Of a stretch of DNA of 64,000 nucleotides, positions 40,188 through 63,898 are shown in pieces. Positions within the stretch are counted from its first letter, which is position 1. The number at the start of each line of letters is the position of its first letter. Below the pieces are notes generated by a model that saw only the letters and a list, made by a program, of their open reading frames with translations, did not search any database and was not told the origin of the DNA. This stretch comes from Bradyrhizobium sp. WBAH42 (GTDB lineage Bacteria > Pseudomonadota > Alphaproteobacteria > Rhizobiales > Xanthobacteraceae). Location: assembly GCF_024585265.1 (NCBI RefSeq), contig NZ_CP036533.1, forward strand, positions 3,791,001 to 3,855,000, written 5' to 3'. A program made the position numbers and the translations under genes.

Positions 40188-43061
40188 TTACTCCGCGGCT
40201 TCGGCCGGTACGATGCGGCGGGATTGGCGCGCCTGTGCATCATAGGCCTTCTGCCAGTCGGACGGGCCGTTCGAGGGCGAGACCTGCACTGCCGTGACCT
40301 TGTATTCGGGGCAGTTGGTTGCCCAGTCCGAATAGTCGGTGGTGATGACGTTGGCCTGCGTGTCCGGATGGTGGAAGGTGGTGTAGACGACGCCCGGCGC
40401 GACGCGGTCGGTGATTTCCGCGCGCAGCGTGGTCTCGCCGGCGCGGCTCTTCAGCCGCACCCAGTCGCCGTCGCGCACGCCGCGCTGCTCGGCATCATGC
40501 GGGTGGATTTCAAGGCGGTCCTCGGCGTGCCAGACCACGTTCTCGGTGCGCCTTGTCTGCGCGCCGACATTGTACTGGCTGAGGATGCGGCCCGTGGTGA
40601 GCAACAGCGGATAGCGCGGGCCGGTTCGCTCGTCGGTCGCGACATATTCGGTGACGACGAACTTGCCCTTGCCGCGGACGAAGCCGTCGATATGCATCAC
40701 CGGCGTGCCCTCGGGCGCCTTGTCGTTGCAGGGCCATTGCACCGAGCCGAGCTCATCGAGCTTGGCATAGGAGACGCCGGCGAAGGTCGGCGTCAGCGCC
40801 GCGATCTCGTCCATGATCTCGGAAGGGTGGCTGTAGTTCATCTCGAAGCCCATCGCCTTGGCAAGGCCGATGGTGACCTCCCAATCGGCCAGGCCGTTCT
40901 TCGGCGTCATCACCTTGCGGACCCGCTGGATGCGGCGCTCGGCGTTGGTGAAGGTGCCGTCCTTCTCGAGGAAGCTCGAGCCGGGCAGGAAGACGTGAGC
41001 GTAGTTCGCGGTCTCGTTCAGGAAGAGGTCGTGGACGATGACGCATTCCATCGCCGACAGCGCCGCGACCACGTGGCTGGTGTTGGGATCGGACTGTAGG
41101 ATGTCCTCGCCCTGAACGTAGATCCCCATGAAGGTGCCTTCGACCGCGGCATCGAACATGTTGGGGATGCGCAGGCCTGGCTCGGGGTTGAGCTTGACCT
41201 TCCACAGCGCCTCGAACTGGTCGCGCACGGCATCGCCCGAGACGTGGCGATAGCCGGGCAACTCGTGCGGGAACGAGCCCATGTCGCAGGAGCCCTGCAC
41301 GTTGTTCTGGCCGCGCAGCGGGTTCACGCCGACGCCGGGACGGCCGATATTGCCTGTGACCATCGCAAGGTTCGCGATCGCGATCACCGTGGTCGAGCCT
41401 TGGCTGTGCTCGGTGACGCCGAGGCCGTAATAGATCGCGCCGTTGCCGCCGGTGGCGTAGATGCGGGCAGCTTCCCGCAGGTCTTTCGGATTGACGCCGG
41501 TGAGGATGGCGGTGGCTTCGGGGCTGTTGTTCGGCTGGGCGACGAAGGTGGCCCATTCCTCGAACTCGCTCCAGTCGCAGCGCTCGCGAACGAAGGCTTC
41601 GTTGACGAGCCCTTCGGTGACGATGACATGCGCCAACGCGGTCATGACTGCGACGTTGGTGCCGGGCATCAGGGGCAGGTGCAGCGCCTTCACATGCGGC
41701 GATTCCACCATCTCGGTGCGGCGCGGATCGATCACGATCAGCTTGGCCCCCTGGCGCAACCGCTTCTTCAGGCGCGAGGCGAACACCGGATGGGCGGAGG
41801 CCGGATTGGCGCCGATCACGACGACGACATCGGTGTCCTCGACCGAGTCGAAATCCTGCGTGCCGGCGGAGGTACCGAAGGTGGTGGCCAGGCCATAGCC
41901 GGTGGGGGAGTGGCAGACGCGGGCGCAGGTATCGACATTGTTGTTGCCGAAGCCGGCGCGGATCAGCTTCTGCACCAGATAGGTTTCTTCATTGGTGCAG
42001 CGGGAGGAGGTGATGCCGCCGATGGCGTCGCGGCCGTACTTCTGCTGGATGCCGCGCATCTTGGCGGCGGCAAACGAGAACGCCTCGTCCCAGGACACTT
42101 CGCGCCAGGGATCCTCGATCCGCTCGCGGATCATGGGTTTAAGAATGCGTTCCTTGTGGTTGGTGTAGCCCCAGGCGAAGCGGCCCTTGACGCAGGAATG
42201 GCCGCGATTGGCCTTGCCGTCCTTGTAGGGCACCATGCGCACAACTTCCTCGCCGCGCATCTCGGCTTTGAAGGCGCAGCCGACGCCGCAATAGGCGCAG
42301 GTGGTAACCACGGAGTGCTCGGGCTGGCCGATCTCGATCACGGACTTTTCCGTCAGCGTCGCGGTCGGGCAGGCCTGCACGCAGGCGCCGCAGGAAACGC
42401 ATTCGGAGCCCAGAAAACTTTCACTCATGCCGGGCGAGACGCGGCTGTCGAAGCCGCGTCCGGAGATCGTCAGCGCGAAGGTGCCTTGCACCTCCTCGCA
42501 GGCGCGGACGCAACGCGAGCAGACGATGCACTTGGAGGGATCGTAGGTGAAGTACGGGTTGGACTCGTCCTTCGGCATCCAGTGGTCGTTGTCGCAACCG
42601 TGCGATTTGGCGAAAACGTGGTTCTCGCCCTCATAGCCGTAGCGCACGTCGCGCAGGCCCACGGCGCCGGCCATGTCCTGCAACTCGCAATCGCCATTCG
42701 CGCCGCAGGTGAGGCAGTCGAGCGGATGGTCGGAGATGTAGAGCTCCATCACCCCCTTGCGCAGCTGCTTGAGCCGCTCGGTCTGGGTGCGCACGACGAG
42801 GCCGGGCATCACGGGCGTGGTGCAGGAGGCCGGCGTGCCGGCGCGGCCCTCGATCTCGACGAGGCAGAGCCGGCAGGAGCCGAACGCGTCGACCATGTCG
42901 GTTGCGCACAGCTTCGGGATCTGGTGGCCGGCATCCATCGCCGCGCGCATGATCGACGTGCCCTCGGGCACCGTGACCTCTCTGCCGTCGATGGTCAGCG
43001 TCACCATCGTCGTGGATTTGGAGCGCGGCGTGCCGTAGTCGATTTCTTCGATCAGAGACAT
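40188..43061 (-). CDS. fdsA: NAD-dependent formate dehydrogenase alpha (catalytic, molybdenum) subunit FdsA
   Basis: 957 residues. The N-terminal 2Fe-2S domain (FGSCRLCLVEIEG) and the His-Cys-ligated cluster region (CDNDHWMP) are followed by two 4Fe-4S motifs (CIVCSRCVRACEE and CVSCGACVQACPT), the cluster motif CAYCGVGCAFKAE, and the bis-MGD domain with the molybdenum-ligand Cys in VCHSPTGYGLA. A Cys, not selenocysteine, is used. It oxidises formate to CO2 and passes electrons to the FdsB/FdsG NADH module; the enzyme is also able to work in reverse in relatives. The gene lies 10 bases after fdsB. Length agrees with Rhodobacter and Cupriavidus FdsA. Confidence 0.97.
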   Translation of the reverse strand: MSLIEEIDYGTPRSKSTTMVTLTIDGREVTVPEGTSIMRAAMDAGHQIPKLCATDMVDAFGSCRLCLVEIEGRAGTPASCTTPVMPGLVVRTQTERLKQLRKGVMELYISDHPLDCLTCGANGDCELQDMAGAVGLRDVRYGYEGENHVFAKSHGCDNDHWMPKDESNPYFTYDPSKCIVCSRCVRACEEVQGTFALTISGRGFDSRVSPGMSESFLGSECVSCGACVQACPTATLTEKSVIEIGQPEHSVVTTCAYCGVGCAFKAEMRGEEVVRMVPYKDGKANRGHSCVKGRFAWGYTNHKERILKPMIRERIEDPWREVSWDEAFSFAAAKMRGIQQKYGRDAIGGITSSRCTNEETYLVQKLIRAGFGNNNVDTCARVCHSPTGYGLATTFGTSAGTQDFDSVEDTDVVVVIGANPASAHPVFASRLKKRLRQGAKLIVIDPRRTEMVESPHVKALHLPLMPGTNVAVMTALAHVIVTEGLVNEAFVRERCDWSEFEEWATFVAQPNNSPEATAILTGVNPKDLREAARIYATGGNGAIYYGLGVTEHSQGSTTVIAIANLAMVTGNIGRPGVGVNPLRGQNNVQGSCDMGSFPHELPGYRHVSGDAVRDQFEALWKVKLNPEPGLRIPNMFDAAVEGTFMGIYVQGEDILQSDPNTSHVVAALSAMECVIVHDLFLNETANYAHVFLPGSSFLEKDGTFTNAERRIQRVRKVMTPKNGLADWEVTIGLAKAMGFEMNYSHPSEIMDEIAALTPTFAGVSYAKLDELGSVQWPCNDKAPEGTPVMHIDGFVRGKGKFVVTEYVATDERTGPRYPLLLTTGRILSQYNVGAQTRRTENVVWHAEDRLEIHPHDAEQRGVRDGDWVRLKSRAGETTLRAEITDRVAPGVVYTTFHHPDTQANVITTDYSDWATNCPEYKVTAVQVSPSNGPSDWQKAYDAQARQSRRIVPAEAAE

Positions 43062-43071
43062 TGTCGTTCTC

Positions 43072-44628
43072 CTATTCCGCGGCTTGAAGCATGGTCGGGA
43101 TGGGCGCGAAATCCTCCCGGAAGTGCTTCAGTGCGCTGAGCACGGGGTAGGGCGTGAAGCCACCGAGTGCACAGAGCGAGCCGAATTTCATGGTGTTGCA
43201 GAGGTCCTCGACCAGCGCGATGTTTTCGTTCACGTGCTCGCCGTTGATGATCTTCTGAATGGTCTCGACGCCGCGGGTCGAGCCGATCCGGCACGGCGTG
43301 CACTTGCCGCAGGATTCGACGGCGCAGAACTCCATGGCGAAGCGCGCCTGCCTGCGCATGTCGACGCTGTCGTCGAACACGACGATGCCGCCATGGCCGA
43401 TCAACCCGTCGCGTGCGGCAAAGGCCTCGTAGTCGAACGGCGTGTCGAACAGCGCACGGGGAAAATAAGCGCCGAGCGGACCGCCGACCTGCACCGCGCG
43501 GACCGGACGGCCGGTGAAGGTGCCGCCGCCGATGTCGTCGACGAGCTCGCCGAGCGTCACGCCGAATGCCGTCTCGAACAGCCCGCCGTAGCGGATGTTG
43601 CCGGCGAGCTGGATCGGCATCGTGCCGCGTGAGCGGCCCATGCCGACATCGGCATAGGCCTTGGCGCCCTCGGCGAGGATGAAGGGGATCGCGGCGAACG
43701 ACAGCACGTTGTTGATCACGGTCGGCTTGCCGAACAGGCCGTGATGCGCCGGCAGCGGCGGTTTTGCACGCACGATGCCGCGGCGGCCTTCGAGGCTCTC
43801 CAGCAGCGAGGTCTCCTCGCCGCAGACATAGGCGCCGGCGCCCACGCGGACTTCGAGATCGAAGGTTTGCTTCGAGCCGCCGATCTTGTCGCCGAGATAG
43901 CCGCCGCGCTTCGCAACCAGAATGGCGGCGTTCATCGCTTCCACGGCGTGCGGATATTCGCTGCGAATGTAGATGTAGCCCTTGGTCGCGCCGACAGTGA
44001 GGCCGGCGATGGTCATGCCCTCGATCACCAGGAAGGGATCACCTTCCATGATCATGCGGTCGGCGAAAGTGCCGCTGTCGCCTTCGTCGGCGTTGCAGAC
44101 GATGAACTTGCGGTCGGCCTTGGCCTGCGCGACGGTCTTCCATTTGATGCCGGTCGGAAAGCCCGCGCCGCCGCGACCGCGCAGGCCCGATGCGGTGACT
44201 TCGGTGAGGACCGCATCCGAGCCAAGCGACAGAGCCCGCGCGAGGCCCTTGTAGCCGCCATGGGCGCTGTAGTCGTCGAGCGAGCGCGGATCGATCACGC
44301 CGCAACGGGCGAAGGTGAGGCGGGTCTGGCGCTTCAGCCAGGGGATCTCGTCGGTGGCCCCTAGCCGCAACAGATGCGGCGTGTTGCGGGCGAGCGCGTC
44401 GAGCAGCGAGGGCACGTCGGCCGCGGTGACGGGGCCGAAGGCGATGCGTCCCTGCGGCGTTGCGACCTCGACCAGCGGCTCCAGCCAGTACATTCCGCGC
44501 GAGCCGGTCCTGACGATCTCGACGGCAACGCCATGCTTGGCGGCGGCCTGCTCCAGCGCCAGGGCGACCTCGTCGGCACCGACGGCGACGGCGCCGGCGT
44601 CACGTGAGACGTAGACACGCATGCTCAT
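43072..44628 (-). CDS. fdsB: NAD-dependent formate dehydrogenase beta subunit FdsB (NuoF-like)
   Basis: 518 residues from ATG 44628, overlapping the fdsG stop by ATGA; an earlier frame extension is inside fdsG and rejected. An N-terminal thioredoxin-like domain of about 110 residues (MSMRVYVSRDAGAVAVGADE) is fused to a NuoF-type module with GLRGRGGAGFPTGIKW (NADH and FMN site), CGEETSLLESLEGRRG and the 4Fe-4S motif ESCGKCTPCRIGSTRG. It takes electrons from FdsA and reduces NAD+. Confidence 0.96.
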   Translation of the reverse strand: MSMRVYVSRDAGAVAVGADEVALALEQAAAKHGVAVEIVRTGSRGMYWLEPLVEVATPQGRIAFGPVTAADVPSLLDALARNTPHLLRLGATDEIPWLKRQTRLTFARCGVIDPRSLDDYSAHGGYKGLARALSLGSDAVLTEVTASGLRGRGGAGFPTGIKWKTVAQAKADRKFIVCNADEGDSGTFADRMIMEGDPFLVIEGMTIAGLTVGATKGYIYIRSEYPHAVEAMNAAILVAKRGGYLGDKIGGSKQTFDLEVRVGAGAYVCGEETSLLESLEGRRGIVRAKPPLPAHHGLFGKPTVINNVLSFAAIPFILAEGAKAYADVGMGRSRGTMPIQLAGNIRYGGLFETAFGVTLGELVDDIGGGTFTGRPVRAVQVGGPLGAYFPRALFDTPFDYEAFAARDGLIGHGGIVVFDDSVDMRRQARFAMEFCAVESCGKCTPCRIGSTRGVETIQKIINGEHVNENIALVEDLCNTMKFGSLCALGGFTPYPVLSALKHFREDFAPIPTMLQAAE

Positions 44629-45101
44629 CGCTGCGCCTCCGCAACCAGTGCATCGAGGCGCTTCTGGTCGAGCCGGCCGATCAGGCGGCCGTCGAGCATC
44701 GCGGACGGCGCGGTCGCGCAGAGGCCAAGGCAGTAGATCGGTTCCAGCGTGACGCGATCGTCGGCCGTGGTGTTGCCGAGCGACACGCCAAGCTTCGCCT
44801 CGGCCCGCGCAGCCAGCGCATCGCCGCCGGCAGCCTGGCAGGCCTCGGCGCGGCACAGCTTCAGAACATGACGGCCGGCCGGCTTGTGTCGGAAGTCATG
44901 ATAGAAGGTGAACACGCCATGCACCTCGGCGCGCGACAGGTTGAGCGCTTGCGCCACCATTGGAATCGCCGCCTCCGGCACATGGCCGAACGCCTCCTGA
45001 AGCGCGTGCAGGATGACGAGCGTTGCGCCCTCCTGGCCGGCATGTTCGGCGACGATCTCGGCGCCGCGCGTCTCGTTCCAAGGCTCATAAACCGCTGTCA
45101 T
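44625..45101 (-). CDS. fdsG: NAD-dependent formate dehydrogenase gamma subunit FdsG (NuoE-like)
   Basis: 158 residues. Thioredoxin-like 2Fe-2S protein of the NuoE family: the cluster Cys are in CRAEACQAAGG and CLGLCATAPSAMLDG. The N-terminal helical part (EGATLVILHALQEAFGHVPE) is typical. It is first in the fds operon, divergent from the LysR gene across 225 bases that should hold the operon promoter. The other half of the module, FdsB, overlaps it by 4 bases. Confidence 0.95.
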   Translation of the reverse strand: MTAVYEPWNETRGAEIVAEHAGQEGATLVILHALQEAFGHVPEAAIPMVAQALNLSRAEVHGVFTFYHDFRHKPAGRHVLKLCRAEACQAAGGDALAARAEAKLGVSLGNTTADDRVTLEPIYCLGLCATAPSAMLDGRLIGRLDQKRLDALVAEAQR

Positions 45102-55944: not shown

Positions 55945-56727
55945 CTACAGCCGAAACTCGTTGGTGAGCTCGCCGATGCCGTCGATGGCGACGGTCACAC
56001 TGTTCACGGGCTCCTTCATCACGCCGACGCCGACCGAGGTGCCCACCGCGATGAGGTCGCCGGGCGAGAGGGTCATGTCGTGGGAGATCCTGCTCACCAG
56101 CTCCTGCGCGGTGAAGATCATGTCCGAGATCGGATAGTTCTGCCGCTCCGCGCCGTTGAGGATGGTGCGCACCGTGAGACTTGCGGGATCGAGACCGGTC
56201 GCGATCACGGGCCCGAACGGGCCGTAATCGTCGATGCCCTTGGCGCGGGCCCATTGCGGGAAGGTGGAGTCGCGCGTCAGGATGTCGTTGGCGGTGATGT
56301 CGTTGACGCAGGTGTAGCCGAAGATGAAGCCATCGGCCTCATTAGGCGAGACACGCGCGCAGGTCCTGCCGATGACGATGCCGAGCTCGCCCTCATAGGT
56401 GGTCTTGCCGTCGTAGTAAGAGGGGCGGCGGATCACGGCGCCGGGTGCGGCGATGCTGGTGGTGGCCTTGAGCAGGTACAGCGGCTCCGGCGGTTCGGGC
56501 TGGTTCAGCTTGGCCGCGAGCGCATGGAAATTATTCCAGAGCGCGACGATCTTGCTGGGCACGCACGGCGCAAGCAGCTCGACCTCCGACAGCGCGAGTG
56601 TCTTGCCGGTGCTGGTATTGCGGCTGAACATCTCGCCCTCGTGCAGGCTGATGCCTGATGACGTCAGCGTGCCAAAGCCTGTCGTGCCGGCATGGCGGAA
56701 GCGCAGCCATTTGGTCACCGACGCCAT
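55945..56727 (-). CDS. Fumarylacetoacetate hydrolase (FAH) family protein
   Basis: 260 residues from ATG 56727; the sequence TGATG joins its start to the stop of the panE-like gene, so translation is coupled. A GTG three bases upstream is possible. The FAH fold is shown by YEGELGIVIGR with the metal-binding Glu and by FGYTCVNDITANDILTRD. Members cleave or isomerise 2-oxo acids with a metal ion (fumarylpyruvate hydrolase, 5-carboxymethyl-2-hydroxymuconate isomerase). The substrate is unknown; the neighbour is a 2-oxo-acid reductase type, which suggests a shared pathway for a 2-oxo acid. Confidence 0.9.
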   Translation of the reverse strand: MASVTKWLRFRHAGTTGFGTLTSSGISLHEGEMFSRNTSTGKTLALSEVELLAPCVPSKIVALWNNFHALAAKLNQPEPPEPLYLLKATTSIAAPGAVIRRPSYYDGKTTYEGELGIVIGRTCARVSPNEADGFIFGYTCVNDITANDILTRDSTFPQWARAKGIDDYGPFGPVIATGLDPASLTVRTILNGAERQNYPISDMIFTAQELVSRISHDMTLSPGDLIAVGTSVGVGVMKEPVNSVTVAIDGIGELTNEFRL

Positions 56728-57746
56728 CACGCCACCGCCAGTGCGCGCGGATCAGCCGGCGTCGAGACGCCGTCATAGAGGCCGGCGATGCGGGCGCGCT
56801 GGGTCACCATGGCCAGCACCGAGTCGAGCGCGGGCGTCGGGATGCCGGTGAGCCGGCCCATCTCCTGCACCACGGTCACGAGCGGGTCGATCTCCATCGG
56901 GCGGCCGCGCTCAAGATCCTGCAGCATCGAGGTCTTGTGCGCGCCGACCTTGCGGGCGCCCTCGATGCGGCGCTCGACGTCGACGCGGAACTTTACGCCG
57001 AAGGTCTCGGCGATGGCTTGCGTCTCCACCATGATCGCGCGCGACAGCGCGCGCGTGGCGGGATCGGTGCAGATCACGTCGAGCGTGGCGTGGGTCAGCG
57101 CGCTGATCGGGTTGAAGCAGACATTGCCCCAGAGCTTCAGCCAGATCTCGTCGCGGATGCGGTCGAGCACGGGAGCCTTCAGGCCGGCCGCGACGAAGAG
57201 ATCGGCGAGCCGCTGCACATCGGAGGTGATCTCGCCCGAGGGCTCGCCGAGCGGAAAGTTGTTGCCGTAGACGTGGCGGATCACGCCGGGCGCCTCGATC
57301 TCGGTGGCGGGATAGACAATGCAGCCGATGGCGCGCTCGGCCCCCAGCTCGCGCCACTGCCGTCCGCCGGGGTCGATGCTCTCCAGCGTCGAGTTCTCGT
57401 ATTGGCCGCCGTGCTTGTAGAAGTACCAGTAGGGGATGCCATTGACGGCGGTGACGATGCGGGTGTGGGGCCCGAGCAGCGGCTGCATCTTCTCGATCAC
57501 GCCGGTGATCGAATGCGCCTTCAGCGTGATGATGATGAAGTCCTGCACGCCGAGCTCGGTGGGATCGTCGGTGCAGCGCGGATGAACGGTGTGCTTCTCC
57601 TCGCCCGCGAGCAGCGTCAGGCCGCGCTCGCGCATGGCGGCAAGGTGCGCGCCGCGCGCGATCAGGCCGACGTCGGCGCCCGCGCGCGCGAGCTGAACTC
57701 CGAGATATCCGCCGATCGCGCCGGCGCCGTAGATGCAGATCTTCAT
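56727..57746 (-). CDS. 2-dehydropantoate 2-reductase family protein (PanE/ApbA)
   Basis: 339 residues. The Rossmann motif MKICIYGAGAIGGYLGVQLA at the N-terminus binds NADPH; the C-terminal helical domain has WLKLWGNVCFNPISALTHAT, with the catalytic-type Lys and Asn. The family reduces 2-dehydropantoate in coenzyme A synthesis, but many members in alphaproteobacteria are paralogues with other 2-oxo-acid substrates. Coupling to an FAH-family gene rather than to pan genes favours a paralogue here. Confidence 0.88.
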   Translation of the reverse strand: MKICIYGAGAIGGYLGVQLARAGADVGLIARGAHLAAMRERGLTLLAGEEKHTVHPRCTDDPTELGVQDFIIITLKAHSITGVIEKMQPLLGPHTRIVTAVNGIPYWYFYKHGGQYENSTLESIDPGGRQWRELGAERAIGCIVYPATEIEAPGVIRHVYGNNFPLGEPSGEITSDVQRLADLFVAAGLKAPVLDRIRDEIWLKLWGNVCFNPISALTHATLDVICTDPATRALSRAIMVETQAIAETFGVKFRVDVERRIEGARKVGAHKTSMLQDLERGRPMEIDPLVTVVQEMGRLTGIPTPALDSVLAMVTQRARIAGLYDGVSTPADPRALAVA

Positions 57747-57798: not shown

Positions 57799-57936
57799 CT
57801 CCCTGCACCTCTCCCGCTTGCGGGAGAGGTCGACGTGCTCGAAGAGCGCGGCGGGTGAGGGCTCTATCCTCTTGGGGAGTCTCGCTGGCGGAGACAGCCC
57901 TCTCCCCAACCCTCTCCCGCAAGCGGGAGAGGGGCA
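57799..57936. repeat. Dispersed repeat with two CCTCTCCCGC hairpins
   Basis: CCTCTCCCGC-TT-GCGGGAGAGG at 57808-57829 and CCTCTCCCGC-AA-GCGGGAGAGG at 57911-57932 are perfect 10-bp hairpins about 100 bases apart. The sequence between (GGCGGGTGAGGG) is typical of a repeat common in high-GC alphaproteobacteria. It fills most of the gap between the panE-like and CBS genes. Confidence 0.85.
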
Positions 57937-57969: not shown

Positions 57970-58398
57970 TTAGGCTGCCGCTTGCGGCGCACCGTTGAGC
58001 GCCTCATCCATCGCAGCGGCGATGTCGCGCATGCTGATGACGGAGACGAGGCTGTAATCGTCGATGACCGGCAAATGGCGGATGTGATGACGGTTCATCA
58101 GATGCCGGACCTGCTCGATCGTGTCCGAGGAGCTGCAGGATACCAGCTGCTGCACCGAGACCAGCTGGGAAACCTTGACGTTGACGGCGCCCGCGCCGTG
58201 CTCGGCGACGGCGCGCACCACGTCACGCTCGGTGAACATGCCGACCGCGGTGTTGCCCTCGGAGCGGACCACGTCCTTGACCACCAGCGCGCTGATATTG
58301 TTGGCGCGCATCAGCTTGGCCGCGATCCCCACCGTTTCGTTCATACGCACCGTGACAACGCGCGGCGTCTTCTTGCGCAGAATGTCTCCGACCAGCAT
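57970..58398 (-). CDS. Two-CBS-domain protein
   Basis: 142 residues, start ATG 58398 with GGGAGG upstream. Two CBS domains make up the whole protein: VTVRMNETVGIAAKLMRANN with the later GMFTERDVVRAVAEHG, and VSCSSSDTIEQVRHLMNRHH with IRHLPVIDDYSLVSVISMRD. CBS pairs bind adenine nucleotides and act as energy or ligand sensors. The gene has a copy of the 17-bp TGG-N-AT motif 35 bases upstream of the start, shared with both OFA transporters, which suggests it belongs to the same oxalate/formate regulon. Its direct partner is unknown. Confidence 0.9.
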   Translation of the reverse strand: MLVGDILRKKTPRVVTVRMNETVGIAAKLMRANNISALVVKDVVRSEGNTAVGMFTERDVVRAVAEHGAGAVNVKVSQLVSVQQLVSCSSSDTIEQVRHLMNRHHIRHLPVIDDYSLVSVISMRDIAAAMDEALNGAPQAAA

Positions 58399-58432
58399 TG
58401 CAACCTCCCTGGGGTGAACGTTGGGAGAAGTG

Positions 58433-58449
58433 TGGTATACATAATGCCA
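58433..58449. promoter_or_regulatory. Motif copy A upstream of CBS gene
   Basis: TGGTATACATAATGCCA. It matches TGG-N-AT-N5-AT-N-CCA and lies 34 bases before the CBS gene ATG. Probably the operator of a dimeric regulator, possibly of the GntR/FadR family, shared with copies B, C and D. Confidence 0.65.
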
Positions 58450-58517
58450 ATCGTCAAGCGCTGGTTTTGGCTGATCCGAAAAATCTTGCGACAGGAATGC
58501 TGACGTTTACGTCCAGC

Positions 58518-58546
58518 AAAAAGAAAGGGGCGCATTGCTGCGCCCC
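58518..58546 (-). terminator. Intrinsic terminator of the first OFA transporter gene
   Basis: Read on the minus strand, an 8-bp stem GGGGCGCA/TGCGCCCC (58539-58546 with 58527-58534) with a 4-base loop is followed by TTTCTTTTT (58526-58518). It lies 26 bases after the transporter stop. Confidence 0.9.
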
Positions 58547-58572
58547 TTAGCAAGCCTTGTAAAATGCGCGGC

Positions 58573-59895
58573 TTACGCCGTCTCGGTCTTGGCCGTGCCG
58601 GTCGCGGCCTCAGTGTGCTCGGCTTCGTTGCCGAGGATGAAGGCGCGGCGCAGCGGCTTGATCACGAACAGCGCCGTCAGCGCCGCCGTTGCGTTCAACG
58701 CCACCGCGACCACGAACACGGCCTTCCAGCCATAGGCGGTCGAGATCACGCTCGCGAGCGGGACGAGCAGGGAGGCCGTGCCCTTGGCGGTGTAGAGCAT
58801 GCCGTTGTTGGTGGTTGCGAACTTCGCACCGAAGGTGTCGCCGCAGGTTGCGGGGAATAGCGAGTAGATCTCGCCGAACACGCCGAAATAGACCGCGGTC
58901 GCCAGCACGAAGACGACAGGCACGTGGCCATAGGCCGAAAGCGTCAGCAGCATCAAGGCGGCGGTGCCGAAGGCGATGAACATCGTGGGCTCGCGGCCGA
59001 TCGTGTCGGAGACCCAGCCGAAGAAGGGGCGCCCGAATCCGTCGAGGATGCGGTCGAGCGAGATCGCGAAGGTCAGCGCCGCCATCTGGAAGCCGGCGAG
59101 TGTCACCGGCGTGTCGGCGATCCCAAAGTCGTGCGCGATCGGGGCGATCTGCGCCGCAGTCATCAGTCCGCCGGAAGCCACCATGACGAAGACGAGATAC
59201 ATCACCCAGAAAACAGGGCTGCGCAGCACTTGCGGCGGGGTGAAGTCGATCTTGGTCTGCGGCAGGTTGAGCTGCTTCTTCTTCGGCGGGATGGAGAGGC
59301 GCGGCGGCTGGACGAAGAAGGCGAGCGCGAACACGACGAGGCCCTGGCCGATGCCGAAGGTGAGGAAGGCGTGCTGATAGCCGCTCGAGACGATCATGCT
59401 CGCGATCGGCACGATCGTGATCGCGGCACCCGCGCCGAAGCCGGCGGCGGTCGCACCCGCCGCGAGGCCGCGGCGGTCGGGAAACCATTTCAGCGCGTTG
59501 CCGACGCAGGTGCCGTACACTGCGCCCGCGCCCATGCCGCCGATGATCGCAGCACTGTAGAGCAGGGTGAGGCTGTCGGCGTAGGCGTTGAGGATCCAGG
59601 ACAGCGCGATCATCACGCCGCCGAACATGATGACGATGCGCGGGCCGTATCTGTCGACGAACCAAGCCTCGACCGGCACCAGCCAGGTCTCGGTGACGAC
59701 GAAGACGGTGAAGGCGAGCTGAATCGCGGCGCGCCCCCAATGATGGGCGGCGTCGATCGGATCGACGAACAGCGTCCAGCCATATTGCAGATTGGCGATC
59801 ATCGCCATGCAGACGATGCCCATGCCGAGCTGGAGCCAGCGGAAACCGGTGCGAAGAGGCGCGGCGGTGACGACGCCGTCCGGGCTGGAAATCAT
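58573..59895 (-). CDS. MFS transporter, oxalate/formate antiporter (OFA) family, copy 1
   Basis: 440 residues from ATG 59895 with GGGAGG upstream. It has twelve membrane helices. Family marks are NLQYGWTLFVDPI in the first loop, VVTETWLVPVEAWFVDRYGP in the next (OxlT-type), GTCVGNALKWFPDRRGLAAG, and GFGRPFFGWVSDTIGREPTM between the two halves. OFA proteins exchange oxalate for formate or carry other small carboxylates. Motif copy B lies 101 bases upstream. It is similar to copy 2 in almost every segment, so the two arose by duplication. Substrate is inferred from family only. Confidence 0.9.
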   Translation of the reverse strand: MISSPDGVVTAAPLRTGFRWLQLGMGIVCMAMIANLQYGWTLFVDPIDAAHHWGRAAIQLAFTVFVVTETWLVPVEAWFVDRYGPRIVIMFGGVMIALSWILNAYADSLTLLYSAAIIGGMGAGAVYGTCVGNALKWFPDRRGLAAGATAAGFGAGAAITIVPIASMIVSSGYQHAFLTFGIGQGLVVFALAFFVQPPRLSIPPKKKQLNLPQTKIDFTPPQVLRSPVFWVMYLVFVMVASGGLMTAAQIAPIAHDFGIADTPVTLAGFQMAALTFAISLDRILDGFGRPFFGWVSDTIGREPTMFIAFGTAALMLLTLSAYGHVPVVFVLATAVYFGVFGEIYSLFPATCGDTFGAKFATTNNGMLYTAKGTASLLVPLASVISTAYGWKAVFVVAVALNATAALTALFVIKPLRRAFILGNEAEHTEAATGTAKTETA

Positions 59896-59996
59896 CGAGA
59901 ACCTCCCAACGCGCCCGTTTGGTCGCGCATCAGTTTGCCAAGATGACCTGATGTCGCAAATGTTGTGGCTTATCGTCGCAGGCGCGGGGCGGAGAT

Positions 59997-60013
59997 TGGT
60001 ATACCATATTCCA
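59997..60013. promoter_or_regulatory. Motif copy B upstream of the first OFA transporter
   Basis: TGGTATACCATATTCCA. It contains the perfect palindrome TGGTATACCA at its start. It fits the same TGG-N-AT-N5-AT-N-CCA pattern as copies A, C and D. Confidence 0.65.
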
Positions 60014-60097
60014 GTTTGCAAGCCCTATCTTGGTTCCCTTTCCACAAAATGCGCGGGTCTGCCTGACTCCTACGGGAGCGCGGGATCTTTGCGTCCA

Positions 60098-60129
60098 AAC
60101 GAAAACGCCCGGCCGTTGAGGCCGGGCGG
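60098..60129 (-). terminator. Intrinsic terminator of the second OFA transporter gene
   Basis: On the minus strand CGCCCGGCC (60129-60121) pairs with GGCCGGGCG (60115-60107) around a 5-base loop, followed by TTTTCGTTT (60106-60098). It lies about 30 bases after the transporter stop. Confidence 0.9.
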
Positions 60130-60159
60130 TGGTGTTTGGAAGCCGCTGTTTGGGGCGGG

Positions 60160-61449
60160 TCAGATCGTCGATTTGGCGACCACGACCTTGCGCCAGGGCT
60201 TGAGCACGGCGATCGCCAGCAGCGAAGCCAGGATGTTGGCGCCGGCCGCGATGATGAACACGCTGTCCCAGGTGCCCGACGACTGCTGCATGTAGTTGGC
60301 GATCGGCACCAACAGCGCGGCGGTGCCCTTCGCGGTGTAGAGCAGGCCGGCATTGGTGGTCGCGAACTTGGCGCCGAACGTGTCGGTGCAGGTCGAGGGG
60401 AACAGCGAGTAGATCTCACCCCAGGCGAAGAACACGAAGCCCGAGAGCAGCACGAACCAGACCGGATCGTGACCCCAGAGATAGAGCATCCAGATGCCGA
60501 AACCTTCCATGCCGAAGGCGATGAACATCGTGTTCTCGCGGCCGATCATGTCGGAGATCCAGCCGAAGAACGGACGCGTCAGGCCGTTGAGCACGCGGTC
60601 GATCGTGGCCGCGAAGGTCACCGCCGTCATCGTCACCGCCATCAGCGTTACCGGCACGCTGTCGACCTTCCAGTCAACCGCGATCGGCTTCAGGTTCGCG
60701 GTGACCATCAGTCCACCCGCGCCGACGATCACGAACATGAAGTACATCAACCAGAAGATCGGCTGGCGCAGCACTTCGGTCGGCTGATAGTTGCGCCGGG
60801 TCTGGATGATATTGGCATTCGCCACCACGTTCGGCACCTGACCCGCTTTTGGCGCGAGCAGGAAGAAGGCGAGGATGCAGATGATGATGCCTTGCCCAAG
60901 GCCGAAATACAGAAAGGTGGTCTGGAATCCGCTGTCCTTGATCATCGCCTGGATCGGCGCGACGGTCAGCGCAGAGCCTGCGCCGAAGCCGGCCGCCGTG
61001 ATGCCGGCCGCAAGACCGCGCTTGTCCGGAAACCATTTCAGCGCGTTGCCGACGCAGGTGCCGTAGACGCCGCCGGCGCCGATGCCTGCGATGATCATGC
61101 CGAGATAGTAGCCGTTGAGCGAGGTCGCCTGCGCGTTGATCGCCCAGCCGATGGCGCAGAGCACGCCGCCGACCAGCACGACGATGCGCGGGCCGTATTT
61201 GTCGACGAACCATCCTTCGATCGGCACCAGCCAGGTCTCGAACAGGACGAAGAGCGTGAAGGCCCATTGGATCGAGGCGCGATCCCAGCCGAACTTCTTC
61301 TGGATGTCGGGGACGAAGAACGTCCAGCCATATTGATAATTGGCGATCATCACCATCGCCGCCACACCGATCGCCAATTGCGCCCAGCGATAGGCATCGC
61401 TTACGCGTGCGGCACTAGGGGCCGCTGCCGACTGCACCATGTCCGTCAT
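60160..61449 (-). CDS. MFS transporter, oxalate/formate antiporter (OFA) family, copy 2
   Basis: 429 residues from ATG 61449 with GGGAGGG upstream; a TTG three bases before it is possible. It has twelve helices with NYQYGWTFFVPDIQKKFGWD, FVLFETWLVPIEGWFVDKYG, GTCVGNALKWFPDKRGLAAG and GLTRPFFGWISDMIGRENTM, matching OxlT-type OFA carriers more closely than copy 1 does. It is likely to exchange oxalate and formate across the inner membrane, feeding an oxalyl-CoA route whose genes are not in the window; formate could be oxidised by the Fds enzyme encoded at 39-45 kb. Motif copy C lies 54 bases upstream. Confidence 0.92.
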   Translation of the reverse strand: MTDMVQSAAAPSAARVSDAYRWAQLAIGVAAMVMIANYQYGWTFFVPDIQKKFGWDRASIQWAFTLFVLFETWLVPIEGWFVDKYGPRIVVLVGGVLCAIGWAINAQATSLNGYYLGMIIAGIGAGGVYGTCVGNALKWFPDKRGLAAGITAAGFGAGSALTVAPIQAMIKDSGFQTTFLYFGLGQGIIICILAFFLLAPKAGQVPNVVANANIIQTRRNYQPTEVLRQPIFWLMYFMFVIVGAGGLMVTANLKPIAVDWKVDSVPVTLMAVTMTAVTFAATIDRVLNGLTRPFFGWISDMIGRENTMFIAFGMEGFGIWMLYLWGHDPVWFVLLSGFVFFAWGEIYSLFPSTCTDTFGAKFATTNAGLLYTAKGTAALLVPIANYMQQSSGTWDSVFIIAAGANILASLLAIAVLKPWRKVVVAKSTI

Positions 61450-61503
61450 CAAAAACCCTCCCGAACGCGCCGATCATTTTTATGCATGCGCTGGCGGGCA
61501 TCC

Positions 61504-61520
61504 TGGTATGCAATATGCCA
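61504..61520. promoter_or_regulatory. Motif copy C upstream of the second OFA transporter
   Basis: TGGTATGCAATATGCCA, 54 bases before the transporter ATG. Same pattern as copies A, B and D. The region 61450-61859 (410 bases) holds this and copy D; no gene was found in it. Confidence 0.65.
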
Positions 61521-61783
61521 AGATTCAAGCTGGGATGGGAGGGTGCGGCGAAATAACGCGGGCTTGTTCACATGCGCCAGGAGGGCATGATTGTAAAGCC
61601 CCGATCGCGCTCGGCGGACGGCGGCGATTGCAGCTTGTCCAAGATAAACCGTTGGTTTTGCGTTGCTTTTTCTTGGTTAGCGATACCGCAGGACGCTATT
61701 GAAAGCTTTTGCGCTCGGAGATTTTTCCACGCCTGCATTGGTCGCGTCCGCCGACGCGCAGTCCGTGGCGGGGGCGCAATTCC

Positions 61784-61810
61784 TGGAATTCTATATTCCA
61801 GAATTCTGGA
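61784..61810. promoter_or_regulatory. Motif copy D with overlapping 14-bp palindrome
   Basis: TGGAATTCTATATTCCA at 61784-61800 is a perfect 6-5-6 inverted repeat of the same form as A to C. It overlaps the perfect palindrome TCCAGAATTCTGGA at 61797-61810. It lies 335 bases before the second OFA gene and 50 bases past the tctA stop, so it may be a distal operator or serve an unseen transcript. Confidence 0.55.
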
Positions 61811-61859: not shown

Positions 61860-63359
61860 TTACGCCATCGACGTACGGAGCCGGCTGTAGCCTTCCTGGA
61901 TCGCGGACCAGAACAGGGCGACCAGGCCGAGCGCCATGATGGTGCTGACGAGGCCGTTGGAGAAGAACACCCCGAGCGAACCTTGCGAGCCCAGCAGCGA
62001 TTGGCGGAATGCTTCCTCCGCCTTGTCGCCGAGCACGATGGCGAGCACCAGCGGCGCGAGCGGATAATTGCACTTCTTCAGGAGATAGCCGAGCACCCCG
62101 AACACCAGCATCAGCATCACGTCGAAGGTGCTGTTGTGCACCGAGTAGGCGCCGATCGCGCAGAGCACCAGGATCAGCGGCGCGATGATGCCGAAGGGCA
62201 CGCGCAGGATCGCGGCGAAGATCGGCACGCAGGTCAGCACGACGATGAGGCCGGCGAGATTGCCGAGATACATCGAGGCGATCAGGCCCCAGACGAATTC
62301 CTTCTGCTCGACGAACAACATGGGGCCGGGCTGCAGGCCCCAGATCAACAATCCGCCGAGCAGCACGGCGGCGGTCGGCGAGCCGGGCACGCCGAGCGAC
62401 AGCATCGGCAGCAGCGCCGAGGTGCCGGCGGCATGTGCGGCCGTCTCCGGCGCGATCACGCCCTCGATCTCGCCCTTGCCGAAATTGTTGCCGCGTCGCG
62501 CCAGGCGCTTGGCGATGCCGTAGCTCATGAAGGAGGCGGGCGTGGCGCCGGCGGGCGTCACGCCCATCCAGCAGCCGATCAGGCAGGACCTCAGCGAGGT
62601 CATCCAATAGGCGGGCAGCTCGCGCCAGGTCTGGAGTACGACTCGAAGGTTGATGCTGGCATTGCCGCCGCGGAAGGCGAGCCCTTCCTCCATGGTCAGC
62701 AGGATCTCGCCGATGCCGAACAGGCCGATCACGGCGATCAGGAAGTCGAAGCCGTTGAGCAGCTCAGTGACGCCGAAGGTCAGCCGCAACTGCCCGGTGA
62801 TCGAATCGAGGCCGACCGCCGCGAGCGCAAAGCCCATCATCATCGCCGCGATGGTCTTGAACGGCGGCTCCTTGCTGAGGCCGACGAAGGAGCAGAAGGC
62901 GAGGAAGTACACCGCGAACTTCTCCGCCGGACCAAACCGCAGCGCAAAGCCTGCAACCAGGGGCGCCACCAGCGTGATCATGATGACGGCAAACAGCGCG
63001 CCGACGAAGGACGAGGTGAAGGCAGCCGTCAGGGCTTCGCCGGGCTTGCCCTGCTGGGCCATCGGATAGCCGTCGAAGGTGGTCGCCACCGACCATGGCT
63101 CGCCCGGTATGTTGAACAGGATCGAAGTGATGGCGCCGCCGAACAATGCGCCCCAATAGATGCAGGACAGCATGATGATCGCCGATGTCGGCGGCATGCT
63201 GAAGGTGAGGGGAAGCAGGATCGCGACGCCGTTGGCGCCCCCTAATCCCGGCAGCACGCCGATGATGACCCCGAGCGTGATGCCGATCACCATCAGCATG
63301 ATGTTGTAGGGCTGCAGGGCGACCGCGAAGCCGTGAAACAGGTTGGCCAACTCTTCCAT
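61860..63359 (-). CDS. tctA: Tripartite tricarboxylate transporter large membrane subunit TctA
   Basis: 499 residues from ATG 63359 (MEELANLFHGFAVALQPYNI). The TctA family (DUF112) is shown by GVIIGVLPGLGGANGVAILLP near the N-terminus, YWGALFGGAITSILFNIPGE with the following DGYPMAQQGKPGEAL, and the second GVTPAGATPASFMSYGIAKR. About 11 or 12 membrane helices. With TctB it imports citrate or another carboxylate delivered by a periplasmic TctC protein, whose gene is not in view. It lies 41 bases after tctB on the same strand. Confidence 0.95.
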   Translation of the reverse strand: MEELANLFHGFAVALQPYNIMLMVIGITLGVIIGVLPGLGGANGVAILLPLTFSMPPTSAIIMLSCIYWGALFGGAITSILFNIPGEPWSVATTFDGYPMAQQGKPGEALTAAFTSSFVGALFAVIMITLVAPLVAGFALRFGPAEKFAVYFLAFCSFVGLSKEPPFKTIAAMMMGFALAAVGLDSITGQLRLTFGVTELLNGFDFLIAVIGLFGIGEILLTMEEGLAFRGGNASINLRVVLQTWRELPAYWMTSLRSCLIGCWMGVTPAGATPASFMSYGIAKRLARRGNNFGKGEIEGVIAPETAAHAAGTSALLPMLSLGVPGSPTAAVLLGGLLIWGLQPGPMLFVEQKEFVWGLIASMYLGNLAGLIVVLTCVPIFAAILRVPFGIIAPLILVLCAIGAYSVHNSTFDVMLMLVFGVLGYLLKKCNYPLAPLVLAIVLGDKAEEAFRQSLLGSQGSLGVFFSNGLVSTIMALGLVALFWSAIQEGYSRLRTSMA

Positions 63360-63400: not shown

Positions 63401-63898
63401 TTACAGACCGAGCCATTCCTCGAGCGGCCCCTTGGGCAGCGGGACCAGGAACCAGCGCTCGAAAACGAGATAGGTCACGACGGGCATGCCGACCGCCACT
63501 GCGACGACTGTCAGCCAGCGATAGCCGCCGAGCCAGCGCATGAACCAGGCGATGAACACCATCGAGGCGACGTAGAGGCCGATGAACGGCATTGAGCCGA
63601 CATAGATCGCGGTCGGCACGACGACGCTCATGACCTGGCGCAGCTGCCCCCATTCCGCGAACAGCCGGCCATCGTCGTCGCGCCGCGCATGCCAGAGGTT
63701 GATGGCGCTTGCAACGACGATGGCGCTGCCGACATAGAAGGGGAAGAACCCGGCGCGCGGCCCCTCCGCGCCCCAGTTGATGCCGGCCTTCAGGCTGCCG
63801 ACGATCACGATCAGGCCGAACACGCCGATCAGCAGCGCCGTGCCGAATTCCAGCGTCTTGTGTGCGGGGCCGGACTCGGATCCGGATCGTTCAGTCAT
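63401..63898 (-). CDS. tctB: Tripartite tricarboxylate transporter small membrane subunit TctB
   Basis: 165 residues. It has four membrane helices, with the family start GTALLIGVFGLIVIVGSLKA and GPRAGFFPFYVGSAIVVASA after it. TctB is the small integral subunit that works with TctA. The gene precedes tctA; the upstream side on the same strand leaves the window about 60 bases after a possible partial gene. Confidence 0.9.
   Translation of the reverse strand: MTERSGSESGPAHKTLEFGTALLIGVFGLIVIVGSLKAGINWGAEGPRAGFFPFYVGSAIVVASAINLWHARRDDDGRLFAEWGQLRQVMSVVVPTAIYVGSMPFIGLYVASMVFIAWFMRWLGGYRWLTVVAVAVGMPVVTYLVFERWFLVPLPKGPLEEWLGL

Follow-up and report, generated by a model that had tools for sequence, protein, structure and literature searches.

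FCD-type regulators of the GntR family, LldR, GlcC, PdhR and NanR among them, have palindromic operators near their own genes and near their catabolic targets. Bradyrhizobium is reportedly able to use oxalate when grown on arabinose (Koch et al. 2014). According to the available parts of two further reports, the oxalate enzymes Frc and Oxc were more abundant on arabinose than on mannitol in the cytoplasm of B. diazoefficiens USDA 110; in the membrane fraction Frc was seen on arabinose only and Oxc was unchanged (PMC5996035); and both enzymes were expressed in 21-day nodules (PMC4926349). As far as the accessible portions of the open-licence literature extend, no operator or GntR regulator of oxalate genes is described there, and no CBS protein is linked to them. 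Here we analyzed a stretch of 64,000 nucleotides from Bradyrhizobium sp. WBAH42 (the window; C1:3791001-3855000, where C1 is the single contig, 8,285,880 bases, of the home genome, G000), in which a preliminary description had reported four non-random copies of a 17-base inverted motif near 58433-61800 and had read them as GntR/FadR-type operators of a likely oxalate/formate regulon that unusually takes in a CBS protein. Our data show one class of predicted operator before a CBS-panE-FAH unit, two oxalate/formate antiporter (OFA) genes, tctC, regulator-oxc-frc, an acyl-CoA synthetase gene, sucC, a formate dehydrogenase and a gene for a protein of 46 amino acids (aa). These motifs are very probably the operators of an FCD-type GntR repressor of oxalotrophy that would be released by oxalate or a derivative of it.

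The strict motif, a 17-mer with the pattern TGG-N-AT-N5-AT-N-CCA described earlier and written here as TGGNATNNNNNATNCCA, was found four times in the window, at 58433-58449, 59997-60013, 61504-61520 and 61784-61800. In 100 dinucleotide shuffles of the window the mean was 0.01 matches, and no shuffle reached 4. When up to two mismatches were allowed, the window gave 15 matches vs 13.97 expected, so that no extra weak sites stood above chance. Across the 8.29-Mb genome there were 11 matches, compared with 2 for the reversed pattern, a lenient control that underestimates the motif background; the many unrelated sites that might have spoken against the motif were thus not seen. Seven of these 11 fell within 21 kb (C1:3849433 to 3870292), and eight of them, together with one variant site, precede genes fitting oxalate use. 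The other three were C1:4532297, C1:8091671 and window 61784, and no regulon gene lies downstream of either of the first two. The motif observation is real, as confirmed by counts and positions. The units behind the sites, in the window and beyond it, are these:

58433..58449, minus strand: operator of the CBS-panE-FAH unit (reading TGGCATTATGTATACCA in the gene sense), 34 bases upstream of CBS, whose start is at 58398
58452..58457, minus strand: predicted -35 TTGACG of the CBS promoter, with the predicted -10 CACACT at 58429-58434
57970..58398, minus strand: CBS gene, 142 aa, two CBS domains
56727..57746, minus strand: panE/apbA-type gene, possibly a PanE2/ApbA2-type oxalyl-CoA reductase; next after CBS, 223 bases on
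55945..56730, minus strand: FAH-family gene, its start overlapping the panE end
59997..60013, minus strand: operator of antiporter 1 (OFA1), sense TGGAATATGGTATACCA; predicted -35 TTGCAA at 60016-60021, predicted -10 CAATCT at 59993-59998
58573..59895, minus strand: oxalate/formate antiporter 1 of the major facilitator superfamily (TIGR04259, 632 bits, cutoff 335)
61504..61520, minus strand: operator of antiporter 2 (OFA2), sense TGGCATATTGCATACCA; predicted -35 TTGAAT at 61523-61528, predicted -10 CAGGAT at 61500-61505
60160..61449, minus strand: oxalate/formate antiporter 2 of the same superfamily (TIGR04259, 647 bits, cutoff 335)
61784..61800, strand unassigned: fourth and weakest match, TGGAATTCTATATTCCA, just 3' of tctA and 334 bases upstream of antiporter 2
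61860..63359, minus strand: tctA of a tripartite tricarboxylate transporter (TTT)
63401..63898, minus strand: tctB of the same transporter
C1:3856274, beyond the window: operator 269 bases before the start of the receptor gene tctC
C1:3856465-3856602, minus strand: orphan 46-aa gene with the variant operator TGGCATCTGGTATACAT, about 1.5 kb beyond the window end
C1:3869407-3870153 (near): GntR/FCD regulator gene heading regulator-oxc-frc, with its site at C1:3870195
C1:3870276: site of the NDP-forming acyl-CoA synthetase gene (acs), divergent from the regulator
C1:820785: site 58 bases before sucC
C1:7586343: site 47 bases before the gene for a NuoF-like FdhB, which is followed by FdhA (formate dehydrogenase)

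Three of the sites had been placed 34 to 101 bases before starts on the same strand, and the measured distances were 34 (CBS), 101 (antiporter 1) and 54 bases (antiporter 2). Moreover, the expectation that frc, oxc and a GntR gene would carry the site was borne out about 15 kb beyond the window, where sites stand before the GntR+FCD gene that heads regulator-oxc-frc. For the fourth site the position further upstream held, but it is the weakest of the four window matches and its support is thin: TGGNATNNNGYATRCCA describes all eight assigned sites in a single orientation but leaves out 61784. A counterpart of 61784, as a strict match 283 bases from the antiporter-2 site, was present in two genomes (G021 and G144), and no match was found in three others (G163, G050 and G124). 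The refined pattern TGGNATNNNGYATRC had 15 genome matches vs 0 in the reversed control, and nine of the 15 belong to the regulon, the ninth being TGGCATCTGGTATACAT before the orphan 46-aa gene, which the strict pattern missed. Six matches lay outside the regulon (C1:4812596, 1799578, 2747943, 4846789, 7546570 and 6638795), of which 1799578, 2747943, 4846789 and 7546570 sit inside open frames. The first of the six is, in the longer form of the site, a near-operator (TGGAATGCGGCATACCT, C1:4812594-4812610), and a gene for a TRAP receptor of the DctP family starts 68 bases behind it. The inner G of the site was kept in all distinct contexts of CBS (50), GntR (103), sucC (8) and TctC (6), and in 10 of 11 FdhB contexts; the acs site has the opposite orientation.

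Conservation was then assessed in loci taken as the best 30 matches of each search, and the counts lean to close relatives for that reason. The strict motif occurred in all 60 Bradyrhizobium genomes drawn, the home genome included (542 matches vs 90 in the control). In 80 loci around the regulator, 78 of them titled Bradyrhizobium, two copies preceded the regulator gene in 80/80, 81 bases apart in 78, and these loci (1.61 Mb in total) held 174 motif vs 0 reversed matches; this also upheld the GntR/FadR-type reading of the operators. In the family sample, at least one copy was found upstream of the regulator in 27/27 loci with at least 79% regulator identity (L098-L124), which span Bradyrhizobium and eight further genera; in six of them (L119-L124) frc directly follows the regulator and the site is still before the regulator. 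Conservation before orthologues held for CBS as well, with the strict site preceding 48 of 48 orthologues of 59-100% identity (30/30 loci of the genus and 18/18 further loci of the family). Antiporter 1 had the site in 12/12 loci at 75% identity or more, FdhB in 11/14 loci at about 80% identity or more, and sucC in 9/30 loci, comprising 5/5 from Bradyrhizobium and 4/4 from genus g26. For antiporter 2, rows L153, L162 and L164, nine rows with too little upstream DNA and two repeat-genome rows were left out, and the site was upstream in 10 of the 16 readable genomes; the six antiporter-2 genomes lacking a site of their own (L322-L327, all Bradyrhizobium) had the small orphan gene and its operator directly upstream instead. 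Among ten clusters holding tctA, the regulator and oxc, the strict site lay just before the regulator in eight (L306-L310, L316, L317 and L319) and was absent from that place in L313 and L318, as it was in L315, where tctA is off the contig.

The regulator itself carries a GntR winged helix (PF00392, 47.1 bits, cutoff 27) and an FCD effector domain (PF07729, 78.4 bits, cutoff 24.3), and is 100% identical to its Bradyrhizobium yuanmingense counterpart. Its USDA 110 counterpart is probably bll3158, judging by the location of that gene beside oxc (bll3157). Twelve solved chains matched it (best E 1.2e-13), all labelled transcription regulators or repressors. All 18 named NCBIfam regulator models (NanR, PhnR, LldR, GlcC and others) scored below cutoff, the best being phnR_burk (95.2 of 271.5 bits) and NanR (65.9 of 260). 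Asn, His, His and His at what are presumably the FCD metal-ligand places were kept in 19/19 aligned homologues; we take Asp/Asn-His-His-His to be the ligand set of this domain, and with such a set a carboxylate, for example oxalate, would be a fitting effector. A predicted palindromic operator stands near the regulator's own gene. The number of motifs tracked the close regulator: the mean was 6.81 in the 27 genomes whose regulator had at least 79% identity (reversed control 1.04), vs 2.14 in 71 genomes with homologues of 48-59% (reversed control 0.39) and 1.62 in 21 genomes without one.

Promoter geometry was counted over distinct contexts in the gene sense, and for GntR only the near one of the two shared divergent sites was used. 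The distance from an upstream TTG to the operator was 5 bases in 48/50 CBS, 20/21 OFA1, 16/17 OFA2 and 5/6 TctC contexts, and 6 bases in 101/103 GntR contexts. Also, a T at +4, which is the last -10 base behind a 17-base spacer, was found in 48/50 CBS, 21/21 OFA1 and 17/17 OFA2 contexts. The predicted window promoters read TTGACG-N17-CACACT for CBS, TTGCAA-N17-CAATCT for antiporter 1 and TTGAAT-N17-CAGGAT for antiporter 2; at all three the operator fills the spacer between -35 and -10 and overlaps the first two -10 bases, which points to steric repression. Seven distant CBS promoters without a strict site have the core GTATN5ATACC at the same distance behind TTGACA.

It is unlikely that the same regulator activates these promoters, whether exclusively or in addition to repressing them. 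Activators as well as repressors exist among FCD regulators, many acs and sucC contexts have the TTG at a greater distance from the site, and fdh has no fixed spacing; an operator inside the 17-base spacer, as at CBS and both antiporters, would nevertheless be unusable by an ordinary activator, and the regulator's own gene also carries sites. Binding of the motif by some other regulator, for example the IclR-family protein encoded next to acs or a GntR protein from an unlinked locus, is very unlikely. Such an IclR-family gene (PF01614, PF09339) does occur near acs in several clusters, and a few matches persist in genomes without a homologue of this GntR protein (E≤1e-30), but the site marks the GntR gene in every one of the 80 and the 27 loci above, including those with frc directly after it, and this regulator has a single match in the home genome at E≤1e-30. 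We attach practically no probability to chance, or to an intergenic repeat spread without a regulatory role, as the source of the palindromes. Another intergenic inverted repeat is present in the window near 57800-57935; against this source stand the expectation of 0.01 in the window, the 11 genome matches, and a placement by gene class and promoter position that extends across genera. Shuffles and site placement ruled this origin out.

Several observations weigh against repression by the FCD-type GntR protein as the explanation of the sites. Many contexts come from related Bradyrhizobium and are hence non-independent, and the 21 family genomes without a regulator homologue (E≤1e-30) still average their 1.62 matches vs 0.43 in the control. 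The strict CBS site is missing from the 10 most distant CBS loci fetched (L236-L245, 50-56% identity), the antiporter 1 site from all 18 relatives at 73% identity or less, the FdhB site from 3/14 close loci (L191, L198 and L199) and from 16/16 at 70% or less, and the sucC site from 21/30 loci. The inner G is retained in only 12/21 OFA1 and 7/17 OFA2 contexts, and T stands at +4 in no more than 2/6 TctC and 2/103 GntR contexts. At sucC the TTG is 9 bases off in 6/8 contexts, and at FdhB no TTG spacing recurs in more than 2/11. Finally, a second formate dehydrogenase, inside the window (40188-44856, minus strand), has no strict site.

The formate dehydrogenase at 40188-44856 comprises an alpha subunit (TIGR01591, 961 bits) and a NuoF-like subunit; the operator-bearing one is at about C1:7581.8-7586.3 kb. 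The USDA 110 gene blr2316, seen only on arabinose, was considered as the operator-bearing FdhB and rejected on locus-tag order, which does not fit.

The CBS gene is a genuine member of the predicted regulon. The strongest argument that its product takes part in oxalate use is linkage: in 35 of the 39 family genomes with a CBS homologue, the gene lies within 20 kb of a regulator homologue or antiporter on the same contig, and the four misses (G081, G120, G142 and G161) are all of genus g23. In seven of the ten most distant loci, all ten without the strict site (L237-L239 and L242-L245), CBS adjoins the regulator homologue and is followed by frc, except in L243, where the contig ends too early; the four of these clusters that were followed further (L296-L299) run on into two antiporters. 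The other three of the ten (L236, L240 and L241, genus g23) have CBS without an adjoining regulator homologue or frc. The order CBS-panE-FAH was kept in six loci (L286, L287, L292, L294, L295 and L301). The CBS protein contains the stretch GMFTERD, which we take to be typical of adenylate-binding CBS domains. The panE-type protein has the ketopantoate-reductase domains PF02558 and PF08546, and matches NF005089, a 2-dehydropantoate 2-reductase subfamily, at 534.6 bits (cutoff 223). In the oxalyl-CoA reductase route of M. extorquens (PanE2) and C. necator (ApbA2), as far as the available part of the report describes it, a panE/apbA-type gene likewise lies near frc-oxc, and deletion of apbA2 in C. 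necator slows growth on oxalate (PMC7486775); unlike in that route, panE here follows an operator-bearing CBS gene and is paired with a FAH-family gene. Given the place of panE behind CBS and the slower growth on oxalate after loss of apbA2, the CBS operator is most likely the switch of an assimilatory branch. The gap between CBS and panE holds an inverted repeat of the type CTCTCCCGCTTGCGGGAGAGG (window 57800-57935), possibly either a terminator or a repeat element of intergenic DNA.

Succinyl-CoA synthetase appears to have been drawn into the regulon more than once. In the tally of the 27 close-regulator genomes, which leaves out G172, the operator stood before sucC in nine; a second sucC lay near CBS or an antiporter in eight others (G083, G123, G145, G075, G117, G153, G101 and G170); and nine had a single sucC elsewhere with no strict site within 200 bases. 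The home sucC and three cluster copies matched NF001913, the equivalog for ADP-forming succinate-CoA ligase, at 577-580 bits (cutoff 370), and for the same four proteins the malate-CoA ligase model was below cutoff. The arrangement operator-panE-FAH-sucCD was found in two genomes of genus g23 (L311 and L320), operator-mdh-sucC in G095 (L312), and frc-sucCD-FAH, with no strict site, in G152 (L318). In Bradyrhizobium G015 (L330, C1:487000-494000) sucC-sucD-FAH is separated from a divergent IclR-gcl pair by a region with two strict sites. That sucC-sucD-FAH locus stands apart from the oxc-frc cluster of G015. Such repeated capture of sucCD argues for a functional need, and suggests a possible source of CoA thioester for oxalate assimilation. 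For the acyl-CoA synthetase, PF13549, PF13380 and PF13607 (ATP-grasp, CoA-binding and Succ_CoA_lig domains) were above cutoff over the 516 residues read, and no substrate-specific NCBIfam model reached its cutoff. Succinyl-CoA as the direct CoA donor to oxalate would be a purely hypothetical step; in the part of the report available, neither YfdE nor UctC, two related transferases, made a product when given succinyl-CoA with oxalate (PMC3720670).

The orphan gene had 56 matches in the loci examined, some of which overlap. They come from Bradyrhizobium and five other genera and amount to 39 distinct proteins; almost every one is 45-46 residues long, and NGDLPRFGL or NGDLPYFGL forms the C-terminus of most. 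TGG[CT]ATCTGG[CT]ATAC was present within 130 bases upstream in 56/56. The next recognised gene on the same strand was a transporter in all 53 readable cases (antiporter 2 in 27, tctC in 19 and antiporter 1 in 7). Three members scanned had no match in Pfam or NCBIfam. A profile search with the small protein returned 2402 proteins at E≤0.01, and among the 120 matches listed all were unnamed or called 'hypothetical protein'. When 199 genomes were drawn from the order, six had the gene, and all six were Bradyrhizobium. The simplest reading is that the small protein is made together with the oxalate transporters, although the gene could be a leader peptide instead.

On the basis of gene content and site placement, we propose how a repressor of oxalotrophy would work here. 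When there is no oxalate, it would cover these promoters; it would be released once its FCD domain had bound oxalate or a compound derived from it, for instance oxalyl-CoA or formyl-CoA. Oxalate would enter by OFA, perhaps also by TTT, be activated by Frc and be split by Oxc, and the formate would be burned by formate dehydrogenase. For assimilation, oxalyl-CoA would be reduced to glyoxylate in the PanE branch. That reduction would free CoA and leave the Frc/Oxc cycle short of formyl-CoA unless a thioester were made anew; the new thioester would be supplied by sucCD and the acyl-CoA synthetase. The CBS protein may tune the PanE branch by sensing the adenylate state, and the small protein may assist the transporter encoded after it. 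Whether the family has a wider oxalate module under one repressor, with a CBS sensor and oxalyl-CoA reductase branch, dedicated or re-recruited sucCD refilling the thioester and a 45-46-aa protein serving the transporters, is a more doubtful matter, and we put this forward as a tentative proposal.

Oxalate is a common acid of plants and fungi, and its use by soil bacteria matters for soil carbon and perhaps for nodules. With an operator defined, the oxalate programme can be put to the test in Bradyrhizobium and related genera, and a candidate regulator for it is at hand. Three unexpected parts of that programme are indicated, namely the CBS protein, succinyl-CoA synthetase and the very small orphan protein linked with the transporters, and the regulon, with its CBS member, is larger than the preliminary description stated. 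When compared with the oxalotrophy of Bradyrhizobium on arabinose described by Koch et al., the enzymes are the same, Frc (bll3156) and Oxc (bll3157); unlike here, the available parts of the arabinose accounts name no regulator or operator of frc/oxc (PMC5996035, PMC4926349). Like LldR, GlcC, PdhR and NanR, the regulator found here has a GntR winged helix and an FCD domain, and as in their regulons, the predicted palindromic operators are near its own gene and near catabolic targets. Unlike those regulons, this one is oxalate-centred, and it takes in sucC and a formate dehydrogenase that are encoded at other places of the genome. The type of regulon is already known; the membership of CBS, sucCD and the small orphan protein was unexpected.

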